From contig CALFUL010000005.1 of NCBI GenBank assembly GCA_937929935.1, positions 1 to 64,000 of the forward strand: DNA of 64,000 bases, written 5' to 3'. A program made the position numbers and the translations under genes. Source of the stretch: an uncultured Flavobacteriaceae bacterium. GTDB taxonomy: Bacteria; Bacteroidota; Bacteroidia; Flavobacteriales; Flavobacteriaceae. Shown here piece by piece: positions 1,005 to 8,206 of the stretch (position 1 is its first letter; each line of letters begins with the position of its first letter). The notes under the pieces are model-generated. The model was not told the origin of the DNA and ran no database searches. It worked only from the letters and a program-made list of their open reading frames with translations.

Positions 1005-4000
1005 TTATACTTCATTGAGGATTTCTAGTATTAATTCTGAAGCATCTTCAATCGCCATCGATTGAGTCCAGAATCTCCTCTGATTGGGACGAACAATAAA
1101 AATTTCGTTGCCTGTTTTATAATTTAATTTTTTTCTGAAATAGATATTTGTGCTTTGTTTGGTCCATAAATGCTTGTCCAGCTTTTGTAATTCCTGTGTT
1201 ACATTCTCTTGAGATTTTAAAACTTCTTTTTCATTTTCTTCGAACGAAATTTTCATTAGCAATAAAGGCGAAAAATGATTTGTATCAAATACTGTAGCAT
1301 TCGCAAATAGGTTTTGCCCATTTAAAAACTGATTTAATCTTCCACTAATTTTCTTCGAATAGTCCTCAATACTGTGAACAGGATTCAGGGCTTTTGACTT
1401 AGCTTTTGAGTGAAACAAATCTAAGCTGTAGTCTAAAGCATCATTTAAAAGGTTAATTTCATCTTCATTCAATCCAAAACTTTTATTGATAATTCCCTCT
1501 ACAGTTTTACTGAAAGTAGTTATCAATTGATTTCGCTTTTCTTCAATATTCCAAAAATCCAAACCTTTAATTTTCTTGATAAACTTTTCGGATAACTTCA
1601 GAATTTTTGAAATCTCAGATTCCTTAAGATTAATGGGGATTGAAAGATATTCGTTCTTCATAATCTGTTCCCTTTCTATACCATATGAAGAAATGGTCAT
1701 AAATAAGAAATAACTACTTAGCTTGGAATTGAAATATGAATTTAGAACCTTAAGAATCGAATTATCATTACTACTTGAATAAAAACCGTAAACACCATCT
1801 CTAAAAGAACAATCTACATCGATTAAGGATGAGCAAACACTATTCTTTTCTAATCCTTTTTTGACAACGATATGGGTATTTACAAATGCTTGAATATCTC
1901 CAAGACGTCTGAAGTGGGAGAAATTTTCAATATCATCGATATCATCTACATTGTAAAACGTTTTGTAAAAGGATTTTGATTTTGGTGTTTTAACAGAATC
2001 TCTTATGCCTTTCAATCGTGAACTTTGCGTGTAGAACCTTTCTATTGAACTGGCATCTAAATAAGGTAGCTCGGACAATATCTCCGAATGTCTGGGTTCA
2101 TCTTTCTTTTGAGTTAGAAGTTGAAATCCAACACCCGATTCAATACTATGCTCTGTATTGAATTGCTCAATAGTTTGGTGAGATTTAGAATTTAATTTTT
2201 CTATAAGTCTAAAATCGGACAATCCGCCCCACATTGCAACTTTCCAAATTTTAGTTTCTTGCTTTTCGCATTCTTCGCGCGGTAAAAACTTTAAATCTGA
2301 ACTATCAATGCTTACACCTTCAATTACATTAGATTTAATAAAGGTTTTAGGCGCATAGTAAACAATAGTGCTCGATTTTTTCTTTGGTGCTTTTTTTTGA
2401 TAAAAAACAACACTTATTGGACCAGTAGCCGAACCGAACAATTGACCTCCAAAATTTTTAGGTGCATTCCTTAAAATTGAGAAGTTATATATCTTCTCCA
2501 CATAGCACTCATTGAAAAGCCACTTTCTAAAATTTTGATATGTTATATTGGTATTTGTAAGTATTTTGGTATTAAAAATCAAGGCAATTTCTCCATTTTC
2601 AGAGAATTTTGTGGCCTTATGCAGAAATGGAAGAACCATCTCCTTAGCGAAACCGTGTTTATCGCTGTAGTTCCGAATAGTTTGCGATAAATTTTTTGTG
2701 CCAAAAGGTGGGTTTCCTACCACCAAATCGAAATCGATTTGTTCTACTTCTGGATTCTCCTGAATGGTATCGTTACGAAACAGATTATTACCTTGTTCTA
2801 CTAGGCTATCGTCCGAAGGGTCGTTTATCAAATAGGGCAAACGATAGTCCTTATTCTGCCAAATCGTCTTAGGATTCAAGTTATCCACCAAGGCCAAGTA
2901 AAGACTAAATGCTGCCACCTTTATAGATTGAGGATGTATTTCTATCCCAAAAATATTATCTGTTAACAGCTTTTTCAACTCATTGAAGTCAGTAAGTTTT
3001 TTGGCTTTGGCATTTTCGTGACGCTTGACCAAGCGCTTGAAGCTTTCGACCAGAAATATACCAGAACCACAGGTTGGGTCTAATACTTTGACATTAAACT
3101 TCTTTTCTGTCCTAGATATTGGCAATTTCTCATTCAATATGAGCTCAACAAGAGAAGGTGGTGTGTAATACGTACCAGTATCTTGTTTTAATGTAGGGTT
3201 TATTTCCCCAAGAAAATTCTCGTAGATTTCACTTAATAATTCTATCTGAATTATACTGAAATCAAAAAGGCGCAAATCTTCAAAAAGATTCTGCTGTAGA
3301 GAATCATCATTACCGTTAATAAAACACTTTTTGATTATCTGTAGATGTTCTATCGAAATGGATTCGTTTTTATCAACAGTAAAAACATTACCATTGAAAT
3401 ATTCTTCCAGTTTTTGAAAAAGGGAAGTGGTTTTATCTGCATTATCTAGAATATCAAAATAGGATTGTGCTCCTTTTTTTATTTCTGAATAGAATTTTGC
3501 GTCTGTAGCACCTCTATCTTCTAAATATAAAAGAAATAAAGAACGCATTATTATTTTATGGATAAGGTTGATTTCTAATCCATCTTCTTGTAATTGCTTT
3601 GCGGTATGGGTAAGACTTTCTACGAGGTATTTGTCAACCCTTCGCTGAAGACTTATCTTCTTTCTAATCTCAAATGCTTCTTCCAACGTCCATATAATAC
3701 CCGTATCAATCGCGATGGTTGAAAAAAGATTTTGAAGCTGTTTGAGTTTGTTTTTATCCGAGAACTTGTAAGACTCAATTTCGAGTGTTTTAAGCTCCCT
3801 TTTATAATCAAAATCATCTGATTTTATCAAAAGAGGTTTTTCCGCACAATTGTAAATACGAATTTCCGTTTCCGAATAAACATATAGAAAAATTACTTTT
3901 TTGAAGTTCCAGATTTTTTTTTGAGCAATTGCAACTTGTCGAAGAGCCCGGTCATCAAACTTTTGAACCCTTTTTAAAAAAACCGCAGGATAACTGTTAT

Positions 4001-4154
4001 GATTTTCGTCAGTACTGAAATAAATTTCATCAATACCAAAGTCTTTTACTTGATTGATTACAACTAACTGGCTTTCAGAAATTTGATTAGATTCCGAAGT
4101 AACAGAGATGGCCTTATCTAAGCCTAGATTTTCTATTATACCAAAATCAATCAT
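1005..4154 (-). CDS. N6-adenine DNA methyltransferase, Eco57I/type II-IIG-like restriction-modification protein
   Basis: The protein has 1049 residues. Around residues 330-370 it shows YYTPPSLVELIL followed by VLDPTCGSGIFLVESF, the S-adenosylmethionine-binding motif I of gamma-class N6-adenine methyltransferases. NPPFG at 481-485 is the catalytic motif IV, and FGIEIHPQSIKVAAFSLYLA lies between them. The long C-terminal half probably holds target recognition. The first ~170 residues contain DEIYFSTDEN...YPAVFLK, which looks like a type IIG nuclease-type fold with the acidic residue of the E-x-K motif lost; this last point is speculative. It probably modifies a specific DNA site, with neighbouring genes supplying cleavage. 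Confidence 0.85.
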   Translation of the reverse strand: MIDFGIIENLGLDKAISVTSESNQISESQLVVINQVKDFGIDEIYFSTDENHNSYPAVFLKRVQKFDDRALRQVAIAQKKIWNFKKVIFLYVYSETEIRIYNCAEKPLLIKSDDFDYKRELKTLEIESYKFSDKNKLKQLQNLFSTIAIDTGIIWTLEEAFEIRKKISLQRRVDKYLVESLTHTAKQLQEDGLEINLIHKIIMRSLFLLYLEDRGATDAKFYSEIKKGAQSYFDILDNADKTTSLFQKLEEYFNGNVFTVDKNESISIEHLQIIKKCFINGNDDSLQQNLFEDLRLFDFSIIQIELLSEIYENFLGEINPTLKQDTGTYYTPPSLVELILNEKLPISRTEKKFNVKVLDPTCGSGIFLVESFKRLVKRHENAKAKKLTDFNELKKLLTDNIFGIEIHPQSIKVAAFSLYLALVDNLNPKTIWQNKDYRLPYLINDPSDDSLVEQGNNLFRNDTIQENPEVEQIDFDLVVGNPPFGTKNLSQTIRNYSDKHGFAKEMVLPFLHKATKFSENGEIALIFNTKILTNTNITYQNFRKWLFNECYVEKIYNFSILRNAPKNFGGQLFGSATGPISVVFYQKKAPKKKSSTIVYYAPKTFIKSNVIEGVSIDSSDLKFLPREECEKQETKIWKVAMWGGLSDFRLIEKLNSKSHQTIEQFNTEHSIESGVGFQLLTQKKDEPRHSEILSELPYLDASSIERFYTQSSRLKGIRDSVKTPKSKSFYKTFYNVDDIDDIENFSHFRRLGDIQAFVNTHIVVKKGLEKNSVCSSLIDVDCSFRDGVYGFYSSSNDNSILKVLNSYFNSKLSSYFLFMTISSYGIEREQIMKNEYLSIPINLKESEISKILKLSEKFIKKIKGLDFWNIEEKRNQLITTFSKTVEGIINKSFGLNEDEINLLNDALDYSLDLFHSKAKSKALNPVHSIEDYSKKISGRLNQFLNGQNLFANATVFDTNHFSPLLLMKISFEENEKEVLKSQENVTQELQKLDKHLWTKQSTNIYFRKKLNYKTGNEIFIVRPNQRRFWTQSMAIEDASELILEILNEV

Positions 4155-4327: not shown

Positions 4328-5701
4328 TCATGGTGATGGCCTATCCCAATGATTCAGATCGTCTTCAGTATTTTCATCTTCGGGTACAATCATTAAACGT
4401 GTATGAAGAGGTGGCTTTGGCGAGAAATATGGTGATATTGTAGAAACAGTCTCATCAAAAACCCAATACTCATCAGGTTTTGAATATGCTTGAAAAAAGC
4501 TACAAAAAATCCACCTTAAATTAGTGTTTTGAGTGCTTATTTTTTCTATTGTTCTCTTAATCTTATCAAATCTTTTCCTTTCAACTTGCGGACCGTCAAA
4601 CGTCTCCATGCCGACATGAATTACGGCTTGATTTTCAGAATTGAATTGTTGCATTGCTTTATGCACCTGATTTTTAATGTCTCTGGCTTTAGCCCATAAG
4701 GCTTCTTTGGCATCACAGCTCCAATAAACACCAAAAGCCTTATTAATATCTGATATGTATAAGTTATTGACGTCACCCACTCCAATTCTAAAAAAATCAG
4801 CGGATATGCCACATGTAAACCCCCTGTTTTCTATTGGCTTTTTTCCTATTAAACTATGCAGCATAGGGGAACAATCTTTAACAGAATTATTTTCTAGATG
4901 CTCTTTTATTTTAGACATATCAACAAATGATAATTCTATATCCACTTTGGTGTTGGAAACAATTTTTCCAGTAACTGGCCTCTTTAGTTGTTCTTCTAAT
5001 AGGTTTTTCAAAAAAGTATCTGGTAAGTTCTCGAGCTCTACATGAAATTCTATATCCAATAAGATGTTTCTTTCTAAGAGTGTTTTACTGATATAAGAAA
5101 CCATCTTTTGTCTTTTCGTGTTTTCTCTGTAGGTATAGTCCGAAGTCTTTGACTGCCTTTTGCATTCGATACTCCAAGTTTCCCCATCTTTTTTAGCTAT
5201 TATGTCCGAAGTTTTACCAGCTTTTTTTTCATCAAGAAAAGCAACTTGATATCCATTTCTGGCCCAAAGAAGGGCTGTCATAATTTCAAAAAGAAAAGCA
5301 TCAGCTTCTGATTTTCTTTTACTTATCAAGTCTTTTATTTTCTTTTCAATTCCTTCAATGTTTTTCAATAAGTCTAAGTCTAGTCCAAAACGCTTAAAAA
5401 TTGGGACAATTCTTGATCCCTGAAAATATTCGTACTTATGTGGCTCATTGATTAGCATGTCCAAAAGATATAAATACCACCCAATTACATCGTCTTTTAC
5501 AACTAATAAAGTTCGTTCTAATAGGGGTTCTGAAAAAGGTTGAGTAGTTTTAAATTGGACGACTATCTTATTCTCAATATCAGCTTTTCTTTTTTGCCAA
5601 TCTTTTTCAGACACAAATGACATAAACCATTCCCATGACTGAATCACATGACCATCGTCATATTGCGGTATATTTATTTTTTCAACTGGTATCCTTAACA
5701 T
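4328..5701 (-). CDS. Putative PD-(D/E)XK restriction-like endonuclease of the methyltransferase locus
   Basis: This 457-residue protein is of unknown family. Residues 130-181 carry E139 in a helix, then GYQVAF, then TSDIIAKKDG with D166, and WSIECKRQ with E179-C180-K181. This is the classic E...D...E-x-K layout of restriction-endonuclease-like nucleases (Mrr/HsdR-like fold). The rest, including CGISADFFRIG and an IHVGMETFDG strand, is not assigned. It is the first gene of a three-gene minus-strand locus, separated by 173 bases from the methyltransferase. It is probably an antiviral nuclease or a restriction subunit. It faces away from the divergent GIY-YIG gene, with hairpin-type repeats in between. 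Confidence 0.55.
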   Translation of the reverse strand: MLRIPVEKINIPQYDDGHVIQSWEWFMSFVSEKDWQKRKADIENKIVVQFKTTQPFSEPLLERTLLVVKDDVIGWYLYLLDMLINEPHKYEYFQGSRIVPIFKRFGLDLDLLKNIEGIEKKIKDLISKRKSEADAFLFEIMTALLWARNGYQVAFLDEKKAGKTSDIIAKKDGETWSIECKRQSKTSDYTYRENTKRQKMVSYISKTLLERNILLDIEFHVELENLPDTFLKNLLEEQLKRPVTGKIVSNTKVDIELSFVDMSKIKEHLENNSVKDCSPMLHSLIGKKPIENRGFTCGISADFFRIGVGDVNNLYISDINKAFGVYWSCDAKEALWAKARDIKNQVHKAMQQFNSENQAVIHVGMETFDGPQVERKRFDKIKRTIEKISTQNTNLRWIFCSFFQAYSKPDEYWVFDETVSTISPYFSPKPPLHTRLMIVPEDENTEDDLNHWDRPSP

Positions 5702-5993: not shown

Positions 5994-6398
5994 ATGCACC
6001 TTAATCAACTGAATTGGATGATGCCAACAACATTGTATGTATTTACCCACGATAAATTCGTGAAATTTGGTATTACCTCGAACTGGCAAAGAAGATTTAA
6101 ATTGTACGATAAAGAACTTGTTGGAGGATATGAAATTATCAAAAAAATTGAATTTGAAACAAGATGGAAAGCTGAATTAATTGAACAAATAGTAAAATGG
6201 AGGTTACGTAAATGGGCGGTTTATGGTACACATGAATGGATTGAACTGCGTGTTCAGCATGTTATAGATTGTATCCAAGAAAGTAAAAGAGAATTAGAAC
6301 CTGAGTTTGAAAAGCATAAATACATACATCAAAGAGGTAAAGACAGGTTTGCTTTTTATAAACAGATAGCAGCAACTTATTTCGATAAGAGTCAGTAA
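5994..6398 (+). CDS. T5orf172/GIY-YIG-like domain protein
   Basis: The protein has 134 residues. It contains TLYVFTHDKFVKFGITSNWQ then RRFKLYDK, the two-strand start of the GIY-YIG fold in its T5orf172/MUG113-like version (Y-V...VKIGIT...R). After the core it continues with a charged helical region. The start shown is the first ATG; ATGATG at residues 9-10 (from 6018) is an equally good start close to the domain. It is divergent from the nuclease gene at 5701 and is followed by a hairpin terminator and the tRNA-Leu cluster. It may act as a nuclease on nucleic acid, but the target is unknown. Confidence 0.6.
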   Translation: MHLNQLNWMMPTTLYVFTHDKFVKFGITSNWQRRFKLYDKELVGGYEIIKKIEFETRWKAELIEQIVKWRLRKWAVYGTHEWIELRVQHVIDCIQESKRELEPEFEKHKYIHQRGKDRFAFYKQIAATYFDKSQ

Positions 6399-6462: not shown

Positions 6463-6499
6463 AAAACCCTGTTAATCAACTTATTAACAAGGTTTTTTT
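6463..6499. terminator. Bidirectional intrinsic terminator
   Basis: AAAACCCTGTTAAT (6463-6476) pairs with ATTAACAAGGTTTT (6483-6496) with one mismatch, followed by a T run to 6499. On the other strand the hairpin is followed by A/T-rich DNA. It sits between the plus-strand T5orf172-like gene and the minus-strand tRNA-Leu sequences. Confidence 0.7.
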
Positions 6500-6500
6500 G

Positions 6501-6593
6501 TACTCGAGGTGGCCCTATTTCGACTACGCTCAACACAGGCTCTGCTTCGGGGGAACCCACACTCCAAAGGAACTGGATTTTGAATCCAGCGCG
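6501..6593 (-). pseudogene. tRNA-Leu pseudogene, 3' part, broken by a palindromic repeat
   Basis: On the minus strand, AGCGCG back to GAACCCACAC (6552-6593) is identical to the anticodon/variable/T-arm part of the intact tRNA-Leu at 6649-6729, including the CAA anticodon loop. The acceptor end (TACTCGAGGTGG, 6501-6512) is separated from it by about 39 bases containing TTCGACTACGCTCAACACAGG, a palindromic repeat type seen elsewhere in the window. The sequence leaves the tRNA in the D-loop at 6593/6594. Its acceptor end matches the 5' piece at 7026-7048, suggesting one gene split in two. Confidence 0.7.
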
Positions 6594-6648
6594 CCTGTCA
6601 ACCTTCTTAAACCAAAAAAGCCCCACTCTTTTAAAGTGAAGCTTTTAG

Positions 6649-6729
6649 TACCTTGGGTGGGAATCGAACCCACACTCCAAAGGAACTGGATTTTGAATCC
6701 AGCGCGTCTACCAGTTCCGCCACCAAGGC
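6649..6729 (-). tRNA. tRNA-Leu (anticodon CAA)
   Basis: The minus strand begins GCCTTGGTGGCGGAACTGG, followed by a D-arm, an anticodon stem-loop CTGGATTCAAAATCCAG giving anticodon CAA (6693-6695), a variable arm and a T-arm with GGTTCGATTCC. It ends CCAAGGT plus discriminator A. The acceptor stem pairs fully with one G-U pair at position 1-72. CCA is not encoded. It is 11 bases downstream of the minus-strand GIY-YIG gene, so a transcript could cover both. It is the only complete member of the local tRNA-Leu cluster. Confidence 0.9.
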
Positions 6730-6740
6730 ATTTTTACTAA

Positions 6741-6989
6741 TTATTTTTCAAGTTTACGGAGATTTTCTTTGCCTACTCCTGATTTCCAATATTTTTCTCT
6801 TTTTCTACCTTCTAGTCTATTTTCACATTCCTCACTATAGATTAATTTAAATGGCGCATAAAAACGTGTCGTTTTTTCTCTCCCATTATTGTGCCTATTA
6901 ATTCTATTTTTTAAATTTTTAGTCATGCCAACATAAATGTAATTATGACTTAAGCTCGAAATTGCGTAAACAATAATCATTCTTATCAA
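6741..6989 (-). CDS. Small GIY-YIG nuclease family protein
   Basis: The protein has 82 residues and contains VYAISS and IYVGMTKNLKNRINRHNNG, the GIY-YIG nuclease core of the UvrC/UPF0213-like single-domain type. The conserved R after the YVG strand and E53-type acidic residues (YSEECENR) are present. M4 (6980) is a likely alternative start. It lies inside a tRNA-Leu cluster: an intact tRNA-Leu is 11 bases downstream and broken tRNA-Leu pieces flank both. The function of such proteins is not established; here the location suggests involvement in recombination at tRNA or palindrome sites, which is inference. Confidence 0.75.
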   Translation of the reverse strand: MIRMIIVYAISSLSHNYIYVGMTKNLKNRINRHNNGREKTTRFYAPFKLIYSEECENRLEGRKREKYWKSGVGKENLRKLEK

Positions 6990-6999
6990 AATTTCATTT

Positions 7000-7048
7000 A
7001 GCGCGCCTGCCTGTCGGCAGACAGGTCTACCAGTTCCGCCACTCGAGC
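7000..7048 (-). pseudogene. tRNA-Leu 5' piece with a 20-bp palindrome in the D-loop
   Basis: On the minus strand GCTCGAGTGGCGGAACTGG continues to GTAGA (7048 to 7026), which is the acceptor and D-arm of a tRNA-Leu. It is interrupted exactly where the intact gene continues with CGCGCT: 7006-7025 is a 20-bp palindromic insert (CCTGCCTGTCGGCAGACAGG), after which AGCGCG (7000-7005) resumes and the tRNA sequence ends. AGCGCG is also the last tRNA sequence of the 6501-6593 piece, so it looks like a short duplication at an insertion point. Confidence 0.7.
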
Positions 7049-7074
7049 ATTACTATGTTACACCTATTTTCTTG

Positions 7075-7115
7075 AGCGCAACTACCTCCCGACACTTCGG
7101 GGCCGCCACTCGAGC
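7075..7115 (-). pseudogene. Second tRNA-Leu 5' fragment with a palindrome insert
   Basis: On the minus strand GCTCGAGTGGCGG (from 7115) repeats the same tRNA-Leu start as at 7048. The D-arm is then replaced by CCCCGAAGTGTCGGGA (7087-7102), a small hairpin, before GGTAGTTGCGC resumes as a degenerate D-loop. No anticodon arm follows. It is a decayed tRNA copy. Confidence 0.55.
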
Positions 7116-7202
7116 ATTAAATAGTGTGCAAAACTAAAAAATAAATCCGTTTTGCAACTAAAAAATAAAAACATTTATCCTTTAGCAAGACAAATAAATT
7201 TT

Positions 7203-7264: not shown

Positions 7265-8206
7265 ATGGCGTATCAAGTACCAGAGCCTAAAATTTTTGCC
7301 TGTACCAAGAGTGAAGTTTTAGCTGAAAAAATTGCTAAAGCCTATGGTACTGATTTAGGAAAAGTTCATATTTCTAGATACAGCGATGGTGAGTTTCAAC
7401 CTTCATTTGAAGAATCAGTTCGCGGTGCACGAATATTTATTATTGGTTCTACGCACCCTAGTTCAGAAAACTTAATGGAGATGTTGTTAATGTTAGATGC
7501 TGCTAAAAGAGCCTCGGCTCGCCATATCACAGCAGTGATGCCTTACTTTGGTTGGGCAAGACAAGACCGTAAAGACAAACCAAGAGTACCCATTGCGGCG
7601 AAATTGATTGCTAAAATGCTAGAGGCCGCTGGGGCAACTAGAATTATTACAATGGATCTACATGCAGATCAAATACAAGGCTTTTTTGAAAAACCTGTAG
7701 ATCATTTATTTGCTTCAACCTTATTTTTACCATATTTAAGAGAATTAAATTTAGACAACCTCACCATTGCTTCACCTGATATGGGTGGTTCAAAAAGAGC
7801 CTATGCGTATTCAAAAGCACTTGAATGCGATGTTGTTATCTGCTACAAACAAAGAGCGAAGGCTAATGTTATTTCACATATGGAACTTATTGGAGATGTT
7901 CAAGGAAAGAATGTGGTTCTTGTAGATGATATGGTAGATACCGCAGGCACCTTGGCAAAAGCAGCCGATTTGATGATGGAAAGAGGAGCTTTGAGCGTGA
8001 GAGCGATTACAACACACGGGCTGCTATCTGGAGAGGCTTATGAGAAAATACAGAAGTCTCAATTATTAGAGTTGATAATTACCGATTCAATTCCGTCTAA
8101 AAAAGATAGTGATAAAGTAAAAGTATTAAGTTGTGCTCCTTTGTTTGCAGATGTAATGCACAGAGTACATCATAACACATCAATTTCAGATAAATTTTTA
8201 ATGTAG
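7265..8206 (+). CDS. prs: Ribose-phosphate pyrophosphokinase
   Basis: This cytoplasmic enzyme makes 5-phosphoribosyl-1-pyrophosphate from ribose 5-phosphate and ATP for purine, pyrimidine, histidine, tryptophan and NAD synthesis. The 313-residue length is normal for class I enzymes. MDLHADQIQGFF is the metal/ribose-phosphate site, and VVLVDDMVDTAGTL around residues 217-230 is the PRPP-binding loop. PYFGWARQDRK is the ATP-binding flexible-loop region. It is followed after 102 bases by rplY, an order seen in many Flavobacteriia. A palindromic repeat half-site lies between them. Confidence 0.97.
   Translation: MAYQVPEPKIFACTKSEVLAEKIAKAYGTDLGKVHISRYSDGEFQPSFEESVRGARIFIIGSTHPSSENLMEMLLMLDAAKRASARHITAVMPYFGWARQDRKDKPRVPIAAKLIAKMLEAAGATRIITMDLHADQIQGFFEKPVDHLFASTLFLPYLRELNLDNLTIASPDMGGSKRAYAYSKALECDVVICYKQRAKANVISHMELIGDVQGKNVVLVDDMVDTAGTLAKAADLMMERGALSVRAITTHGLLSGEAYEKIQKSQLLELIITDSIPSKKDSDKVKVLSCAPLFADVMHRVHHNTSISDKFLM

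Follow-up and report, generated by a model that had tools for sequence, protein, structure and literature searches.

A compact GIY-YIG nuclease unit beside broken tRNA genes in Flavobacteriaceae: a probable homing-type mobile element

The tRNA-Leu locus beside prs

We describe a small GIY-YIG nuclease gene at a broken tRNA-Leu locus of an uncultured Flavobacteriaceae bacterium (assembly GCA_937929935.1, contig CALFUL010000005.1, positions 1-64,000). This whole stretch of 64,000 nucleotides (nt) is called the window. As read from the sequence, the gene belongs to a compact unit that adjoins prs and occupies 6463-7136 on the minus strand. The order on this strand is a promoter-like motif, two 5′ pieces of tRNA-Leu(CAA), the GIY-YIG gene, an intact tRNA-Leu(CAA), a terminator, a 3′ piece and another terminator, as follows:

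7265..8206, plus strand: prs (ribose-phosphate pyrophosphokinase; Pfam Pribosyltran_N, E 4.9e-46), conserved neighbour and locus anchor in relatives
7129..7136, minus strand: TAGTTTTG, promoter-like motif, begins 21 nt ahead of the first 5′ fragment (fragment A)
7103..7119, minus strand: fragment A, TAAT plus GCTCGAGTGGCGG, a tRNA-Leu 5′ end with a hairpin after it (about 7087-7102); repeats 7036-7052 exactly over 17 bases
7026..7052, minus strand: fragment B, the resident tRNA-Leu 5′ piece (acceptor GCTCGAG, D-arm up to GGTAGA); blastn-short E 2e-9; acceptor matches 10/11 congeners
7006..7025, minus strand: 20-bp palindrome CCTGTCTGCCGACAGGCAGG at the D-loop/3′ D-stem boundary of fragment B; 0 expected by chance in the window
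7000..7005, minus strand: CGCGCT, final bases of the 5′ piece ahead of the nuclease unit; tRNA-Leu 5′ pieces diverge shortly past it
6741..6989, minus strand: GIY-YIG nuclease gene, 82 amino acids (aa) from TTG 6989 or 79 aa from ATG 6980; PF01541, E 5.5e-18
6648..6729, minus strand: intact tRNA-Leu(CAA), acceptor GCCTTGG/CCAAGG; ARAGORN, Rfam 59.6 bits
6616..6646, minus strand: terminator-like hairpin right after the intact tRNA; 14 pairs, fold -14.7 kcal/mol
6503..6597, minus strand: resident tRNA-Leu 3′ piece, anticodon arm to T-stem (6553-6596), an insert in the T-arm (about 6513-6552), then CCACCTCGAG; blastn-short E 3e-19
6463..6496, minus strand: second terminator-like hairpin, at the same place as the hairpin after tRNA-Leu in congeners

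We take TAnnTTTG to be the Bacteroidota-type promoter motif, and TAGTTTTG is presumably an instance of it. A preliminary description of the locus had placed an intact tRNA-Leu(CAA) 11 bases downstream of the GIY-YIG gene. The ARAGORN, Rfam and Pfam matches listed above bear this out, with 11 bases between the nuclease stop codon and the tRNA. The same description combined a single 5′ piece, at 7026-7048, with the 3′ piece into one tRNA-Leu broken in the D-loop. Both are genuine tRNA-Leu pieces, and the 3′ piece, which terminates in CTCGAG at 6503-6508, is 98% identical to 6666-6709 of the intact tRNA. Simple joining is nevertheless prevented by the palindrome at 7006-7025 and by the T-arm insert, which is hairpin-forming and about 40 bases long. 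The 5′ piece itself was found (7026-7052), but it is accompanied by a second 5′ fragment at 7103-7119, also followed by a hairpin. In a cloverleaf reading the junction lies not in the D-loop, which holds the palindrome instead, but just past CGCGCT, in the first bases of the anticodon stem.

The sequence AGCGCGCCTG is present twice, at 6588-6597 and 7000-7009. Its occurrence at both ends agrees with the repeat noted previously (AGCGCG plus CCTG), there regarded as a duplication; we read it as one tRNA-plus-palindrome stretch kept in both pieces, and for this reason a classical target-site duplication by a transposase was rejected. The resemblance to a target duplication, together with a displaced piece lying beyond the restored tRNA, as is typical of integrase elements, could still point to the remnant of an integrase-type or transposon insertion in the tRNA gene. 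We consider this origin extremely improbable, since the repeat is accounted for otherwise, the compact unit recurs in other genomes and GIY-YIG is the only assignable open reading frame (ORF) between the pieces, other ORFs of at least 60 aa running through tRNA sequence and not having been searched.

Empty sites in congeners and a foreign acceptor stem

Counting that of the window, 14 genomes of the genus were searched for prs and 12 gave it, leaving 11 congeners for comparison. In all 11, a single uninterrupted tRNA-Leu(CAA) lies directly upstream of prs, and no nuclease match was found in these loci. Relatives without the nuclease, to which the preliminary description had pointed, thus carry the uninterrupted gene; the plain tandem array of tRNA-Leu genes expected from simple decay was not found in the 11 congeners.

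The acceptor stem of the congener gene is GCTCGAG in 10 of the 11 (CTCGAG, as in the window's pieces) and GCCGAAG in one. None of them has the CCTTGG stem of the window's intact copy. Compared with five congeners, this intact tRNA carries 8 substitutions, all within the stem, the remainder being identical. Copies with CCTTGG occur in 62 of 299 family genomes, the window's own included, and the closest among those fetched, at 1 difference, belong to Euzebyella saccharophila (L126) and to locus L055. Since the pieces carry the congener stem CTCGAG and the intact copy CCTTGG, the resident tRNA-Leu is, on sequence evidence, the broken one, and the working copy carries a foreign acceptor stem. The empty congener sites and this foreign stem support the earlier proposal that the unit breaks a tRNA gene while supplying a replacement.

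Across the genus, presence of the nuclease is patchy, with a match in 7 of the 14 genomes. Another tRNA-Leu(CAA) was found in the window's assembly on contig C39 (L250, L386); its acceptor is GCCCGAG, and a palindrome precedes the gene by about 30 bases. None of 13 congeners has a match to the hscB-like gene next to it. The contig may therefore be mis-binned, and the tRNA gene was set aside as a possible back-up copy.

Two of the 11 congeners (L022 and L028) have an extra 3′ tRNA fragment with a T-loop palindrome beside the intact tRNA-Leu, without a nuclease. These fragments may be old scars of lost units.

Recurrence at tRNA-Leu(CAA) loci

In seven loci, among them ones of Winogradskyella, Allomuricauda and Salinimicrobium, a tRNA-Leu(CAA) next to prs is adjoined by a relative of the nuclease with 57-81% identity; in 5 of the 7 the nuclease sits between prs and the tRNA. 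Among 35 tRNA-Leu loci with a nuclease, a 5′ piece was recognized by pattern in 27 and none by pattern in 8. All 27 pieces have an insert between GGTAGA and CGCG, which is exactly CCTGTCTGCCGACAGGCAGG in 16 of them, and divergence begins soon past CGCGC.

The acceptors of piece and intact tRNA are of clearly different type at 5 of the 27 readable loci, the window included, and one or two bases apart at two more. Locus L151 repeats the logic of the window in a different order, with resident-type pieces outside and the other stem type and the nuclease inside.

Recurrence at other tRNA genes

A single-query search with the window protein gave 40 matches in 17 of 39 genomes, 4 of which were dropped as parts of long proteins. 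A tRNA or tmRNA was present within 1.2 kb in 16 of the other 36, and a tRNA piece in 14 of the 36, mostly the best-scoring ones. Beyond tRNA-Leu, the better matches adjoin Arg(TCG), Arg(ACG), Met, Asp, Val and what we read as an initiator-like Met, each with pieces of the same tRNA. One further match, at the end of a contig, has an Arg(TCT) piece as its neighbour.

We then used an alignment of 16 nuclease genes picked for adjoining tRNA genes or pieces, towards which group its best matches lean. Matches (E up to 1e-8) were obtained in 285 of 397 family genomes. Clustering around the best listed matches defined 119 loci (L267-L385), of which L267 is the window and L336 is without an intact nuclease frame. 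For this set, as for the phylum-wide set below, tRNA linkage was examined at the best-scoring loci. The 119 loci hold 160 GIY-YIG genes; for 137 of these ARAGORN found a tRNA within 1 kb, in the same orientation in all 137 cases. A tRNA is present in 107 of the loci and a piece of the same tRNA in 74; in 71 the nuclease separates this piece from the tRNA. By comparison, such a piece was found at 3 of 30 tRNA loci of one congener (Fisher p 1.4e-7; control loci all from one genome and partly overlapping) and in 0 of 108 cases with a reversed background. Together with the blastn-short E values of 3e-19 and 2e-9, these controls rule out a chance origin of the tRNA pieces.

Ten tRNA species are represented: Arg(TCG) 39 times, Leu(CAA) 32, Arg(ACG), Met and Ala(GGC) 15 each, Ser(TGA) 8, Asp 7, Asn 4, and Pro and Val 1 each. 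Two or more nuclease genes occur in 24 of the 119 loci, often arranged as piece-GIY-piece-GIY-tRNA and extending for example to piece-GIY-piece-GIY-piece-GIY-tRNA. Throughout the phylum, matches (E up to 1e-12) were found in 157 of 296 genomes. The 27 loci inspected, which include two family loci already seen (L404 and L419), have a tRNA in 26 cases and a piece in 22, and add Leu(CAG), Leu(GAG), Leu(TAA), Cys and Arg(CCT). The preliminary description had proposed to look for other GIY-YIG genes in or beside tRNA genes. Neighbours of this kind, with pieces of that tRNA on the flanks, are common in family and phylum loci.

Could the arrangement have arisen simply because tRNA-Leu copies were tandemly duplicated and then decayed, close to a GIY-YIG gene that has nothing to do with them? 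Tandem units do exist, pieces lie near 3 of 30 tRNA genes fetched regardless of nuclease, and the extra 3′ fragments of L022 and L028 stand without one. Such nuclease-free scars can be units after loss of the nuclease. Moreover, there is just one intact copy in each of the 11 congeners, the intact copy of the window has a foreign acceptor stem, and in 71 of 119 loci piece and intact tRNA stand on opposite sides of the nuclease, whose orientation is the same in 137 of 137 cases. Duplication and decay, which the congeners already largely contradict, are very improbable.

Several individual loci showed further features. Locus L398 (G643) carries five nuclease copies of equal score at an exact spacing of 450 bases; pieces of tRNA-Leu(CAG) come after every copy, and the tandem amplification looks recent. 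At L208 (2926-2955, and the same place in L002), an antisense tRNA-Arg(TCG) fragment lies within the GIY-YIG frame, which is unbroken. In L009 and L195, an ARAGORN call of tRNA-SeC overlaps a tRNA-Val 3′ piece beside a GIY-YIG gene; pieces beside such genes can thus produce false tRNA annotations. Finally, L005 has two GIY-YIG genes 0.4-0.8 kb downstream of tmRNA, without tRNA pieces, and tmRNA may also be a target.

The nuclease: fold, conservation and phylogeny

The nuclease is a bare GIY-YIG domain (AlphaFold mean pLDDT 95.7). UPF0213 and Slx1, then I-TevI, were the nearest folds found by Foldseek, with weak E values (best 1.2e-3) and probabilities of 0.69 to 1.00. By sequence, too, the nearest relatives are UPF0213 and Slx1, a structure-specific nuclease. 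The NCBIfam model for group I intron endonucleases matched 4 of 16 nucleases weakly, the window's not among them.

Residues Tyr5, Tyr16, Gly18, Arg26 and Glu62 are each present in at least 146 of 147 nuclease sequences. Between tandem copies within a locus, amino-acid change is lower than silent change (66 pairs, summed pN 3.1 and pS 11.1, respectively). We used these within-locus pairs, the corresponding ratio between loci (dN/dS) being unreliable (388 pairs, median 0.58, distorted by the outlier L319).

In a tree of 140 nuclease sequences, which has few columns and many unresolved forks, labels for the nearest tRNA ('none' being counted as a label) required 26 changes compared with a mean of 92.7 after shuffling. 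The Leu(CAA) nucleases form one clade of 32 (SH-aLRT 94) and those at Asn one clade of 4 (98); each of the other tRNA species requires 3 to 12 changes. At 33 tRNA-Leu loci, we compared the nuclease tree with that of prs. Of 5 nuclease splits with support, 4 are contradicted by prs splits that are likewise supported, and none of 30 splits is shared. This conflict favours lateral movement at the tRNA-Leu locus, with some vertical signal apparently remaining.

Expression signals

Of 75 loci, 37 have the promoter motif in the 60 nt ahead of the 5′ piece and 8 have it ahead of the intact tRNA (5.1% in shuffled sequence). In one congener taken for comparison, it lies upstream of 17 of 30 tRNA genes. 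The tRNA gene and the stop codon of the nuclease overlap in 58 of 94 cases, the median gap being -10. The motif at the 5′ piece, its rarity at the intact tRNA and the overlap of the stop codon suggest a shared transcript, and nuclease and tRNA are most likely on one. Where the two overlap, tRNA processing would cut away the end of the message.

The same signals could be expected of a domesticated host function, in which the nuclease, co-transcribed with the tRNA, would act in defence, RNA processing or the supply of tRNA, and the pieces would be leader elements. In its favour, the promoter motif is kept ahead of the 5′ piece and rare ahead of the intact tRNA, the stop codon frequently overlaps the tRNA (in the window there is an 11-base gap instead) and the 5′ pieces with their hairpins are strikingly uniform. 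However, a patchy distribution within the genus (7 of 14 genomes), the many tRNA genes concerned, the tandem arrays and the conflict with the tree of the neighbouring gene render such a function quite improbable.

Palindromes at helix boundaries of the pieces

We scanned the pieces for palindromic inserts interrupting tRNA sequence. Of 97 found, 94 were kept after removal of duplicate places (the insertion counts, like the carrier and non-carrier counts given below, are recounts with places fetched twice removed). They interrupt the tRNA at position 22 or 23, from D-loop to 3′ D-stem, in 63 cases, at 8 or 9, before the D-stem, in 16 and at 32, from anticodon stem to loop, in 6; the remainder lie at 64 of Leu(CAG), from T-stem to loop (3), 26 (1), 10 (3) and 11 (2). 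By our definition, 89 of the 94 are at a helix boundary, with 17.0 expected. For distinct combinations of tRNA and site the figure is 16 of 18, with 3.3 expected, and none of 20000 random placements matched this bias. The palindrome sequences vary between tRNA species. The hairpins may shield the pieces from the nuclease, block tRNA-like processing of the leader or represent structure-specific break points.

That the palindromes are exclusive to the element was not supported, as exact copies occur elsewhere (in genome G000 at 5 places, one of them on contig C39, and in G003 at many). No exact copy was found in 7 of 14 genomes. We also read 19 sites of CCTG-type palindromes that lie beyond the window's unit; one of them borders directly on a tRNA piece, and two have an intact tRNA in their vicinity.

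In locus L262 (G001), at about 1545-1587, a CCTG-type palindrome abuts a tRNA-Thr(GGT) 3′ piece downstream of the intact gene, within a tRNA cluster.

These observations raise the possibility that recognition is guided by structure, an Slx1-like nuclease reading folded tRNA-gene DNA (hairpins or cruciforms) and the palindromes marking breaks or being co-mobilised. The closest solved relatives, UPF0213 and the structure-specific Slx1, and the placement of 89 of 94 inserts at helix boundaries would both suit such a scheme. Yet palindromes of the same type lie elsewhere, with 1 of the 19 outside sites at a tRNA piece and 2 near an intact tRNA. Their difference between tRNA species would also be compatible with separate repeats, helix boundaries may simply tolerate insertions, and nuclease clades by tRNA identity fit sequence recognition too. 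We regard structural guidance as possible, if doubtful. Rather unlikely, in our view, is the fuller picture of a large undescribed class of Bacteroidota elements, in which an Slx1-like nuclease would attack foldable tRNA genes in the loops and arms of the cloverleaf, bring a working tRNA and leave the pieces sealed by hairpins at helix boundaries against recutting and tRNA processing.

A homing-type model and its difficulties

Taken together, these results suggest that the unit is probably a homing-type mobile element that invades tRNA genes and brings a working copy. This reading draws on the anatomy of the locus, the empty sites, the foreign stem, recurrence, the single orientation, the arrays, the conserved catalytic residues, the clades by tRNA and the tree conflict.

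In this model, a small GIY-YIG gene would bring along the tRNA it invades, either as a working copy or as the part required. The nuclease would break the tRNA gene, and the break would be repaired from an element-bearing donor through recombination in tRNA sequence, the outer pieces possibly serving as homology arms. The working tRNA would be delivered in the same step as the repair, and the adjacent intact tRNA would sustain the cell. The resident gene would end as outer pieces and the nuclease gene would take over the resident tRNA promoter. Arrays may arise along the same route as single units. For the window, entry by crossing over within the 5′ piece and within a 3′ piece would fit the position of resident-type pieces on either side of a foreign-type tRNA. 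Loci L076 and L151 also have 3′ pieces suited to such a crossover.

Several observations weigh against this model. The nucleases, of 79-94 aa in the alignment, have the GIY-YIG fold only and no separate DNA-binding domain. At the threshold used, 45 of the 119 loci have no piece, and 20 of 147 nuclease genes have no tRNA within 1.5 kb. All 28 Leu(CAA) units checked adjoin prs, and distances of nuclease and prs correlate weakly but above chance (Mantel r 0.21, with 21 of 999 permutations as high); for these two reasons, some vertical descent is likely. Concerning the vehicle, no plasmid match to the window protein and one weak phage match were found. In addition, no sequence change within the intact tRNA-Leu that would spare a carrier was found, the anticodon arm being in most cases identical whether or not the element is present: CTGGATTCAAAATCCAG occurs in 30 of 41 carrier and 106 of 131 non-carrier distinct places.

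Self-cutting poses the chief difficulty for the model: an immunity change inside the intact tRNA was not found, and recognition of acceptor stem, flanks or structure could instead provide a way out. The stems GCCTTGG and GCTCGAG occur in carriers and non-carriers alike. GCTCAAG, GCCTCGG, GCCAAAG and two others were seen in carriers only, the frequencies being biased because non-carriers were mostly fetched through the CCTTGG pattern.

We also inspected 8 viral contigs with relatives of the nuclease. An intact tRNA is present in 2 of them and tRNA pieces in 3 others.

Relation to known systems

Group I introns with homing endonucleases insert in tRNA genes and keep their function by splicing, whereas the unit would keep it by a spare tRNA copy. 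A search of the whole window with Rfam at the gathering threshold returned a single match, the tRNA, and a group I intron was rejected. Genomic islands borne by integrases target a tRNA gene, restore its function and leave a displaced fragment, three features in common with the unit. In contrast to such islands, the unit has a nuclease gene of about 0.25 kb as its only assigned gene, no integrase was found in it, and pieces lie on either or both sides.

The homing endonuclease SegB is larger than the bare nuclease domain of 79-95 aa and has its own DNA-binding region; this region is absent from the unit's nuclease. In phages T4 and T6, SegB is free-standing and lies beside tRNA genes of many isotypes; it drives amplification of tRNA-nuclease segments, for which recombination between short homologies has been proposed (PMC13096335). 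Nuclease genes beside tRNA genes of many isotypes are thus common to both systems as far as the portion of that report considered here goes. SegB resides in phages and the unit in bacterial chromosomes, and a broken resident tRNA with a replacement copy is not described for SegB in the same portion (PMC13096335).

In fungal mitochondria, mORF elements are found in atp6 of Allomyces and in atp6, atp9, cox2 and nad3 of Glomus: an endonuclease gene in an essential gene brings a foreign end, and the native end is displaced downstream (PMC3630166). From the sections of that paper considered, the nuclease in atp9 is a GIY-YIG enzyme and three of the four Glomus nucleases are LAGLIDADG (PMC3630166). 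The unit resembles them by a displaced native part, an intact foreign part, presumably in use given its intactness, and a nuclease between or beside the two. According to the same sections, mORF elements concern mitochondrial protein genes and 3′ ends only. The unit concerns bacterial tRNA genes, in which the 5′ part is often displaced, and in the window it brings a whole tRNA.

UPF0213 and Slx1 are cellular proteins, unlike the unit's nuclease; among the 36 small relatives, only part are tRNA-linked. A 2006 survey of GIY-YIG proteins treated stand-alone Slx1-like domains as the minimal form and, in the part of the survey considered, showed no linkage to tRNA genes (PMC1564403). The unit would work like a combination of SegB and mORF, as described in the portions of those reports considered, without a separate DNA-binding region. 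Because this region is lacking and immunity through an altered target was not demonstrated, we set it apart as a variant rather than a member.

No description of GIY-YIG units in bacterial tRNA genes was found among the matches listed from the open-licence full-text literature (without preprints and subscription papers), and they apparently represent a widespread, so far undescribed kind of mobile element. Should the units home, selfish DNA would break and replace essential tRNA genes again and again in a major bacterial phylum; in the congener listed, many of these genes are single-copy. This could help explain varied acceptor stems and stray tRNA fragments. The nuclease domain of about 80 residues and its tRNA would offer a minimal natural system in which one could test directly how a nuclease targets tRNA genes without killing the host.

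Neighbouring genes in the window

About 100 bases from the 3′ piece, on the opposite strand, a 134-aa ORF (5994-6398, plus strand) has a weak match to MUG113 (E 0.0006, under the Pfam cut-off), a family that we take to be related to GIY-YIG. Further away on the minus strand, a large protein like Eco57I N6 adenine methylase is encoded beside a 457-aa protein without a Pfam match (1005-4154 and 4328-5701). These two genes form a possible restriction or defence locus adjoining the unit.

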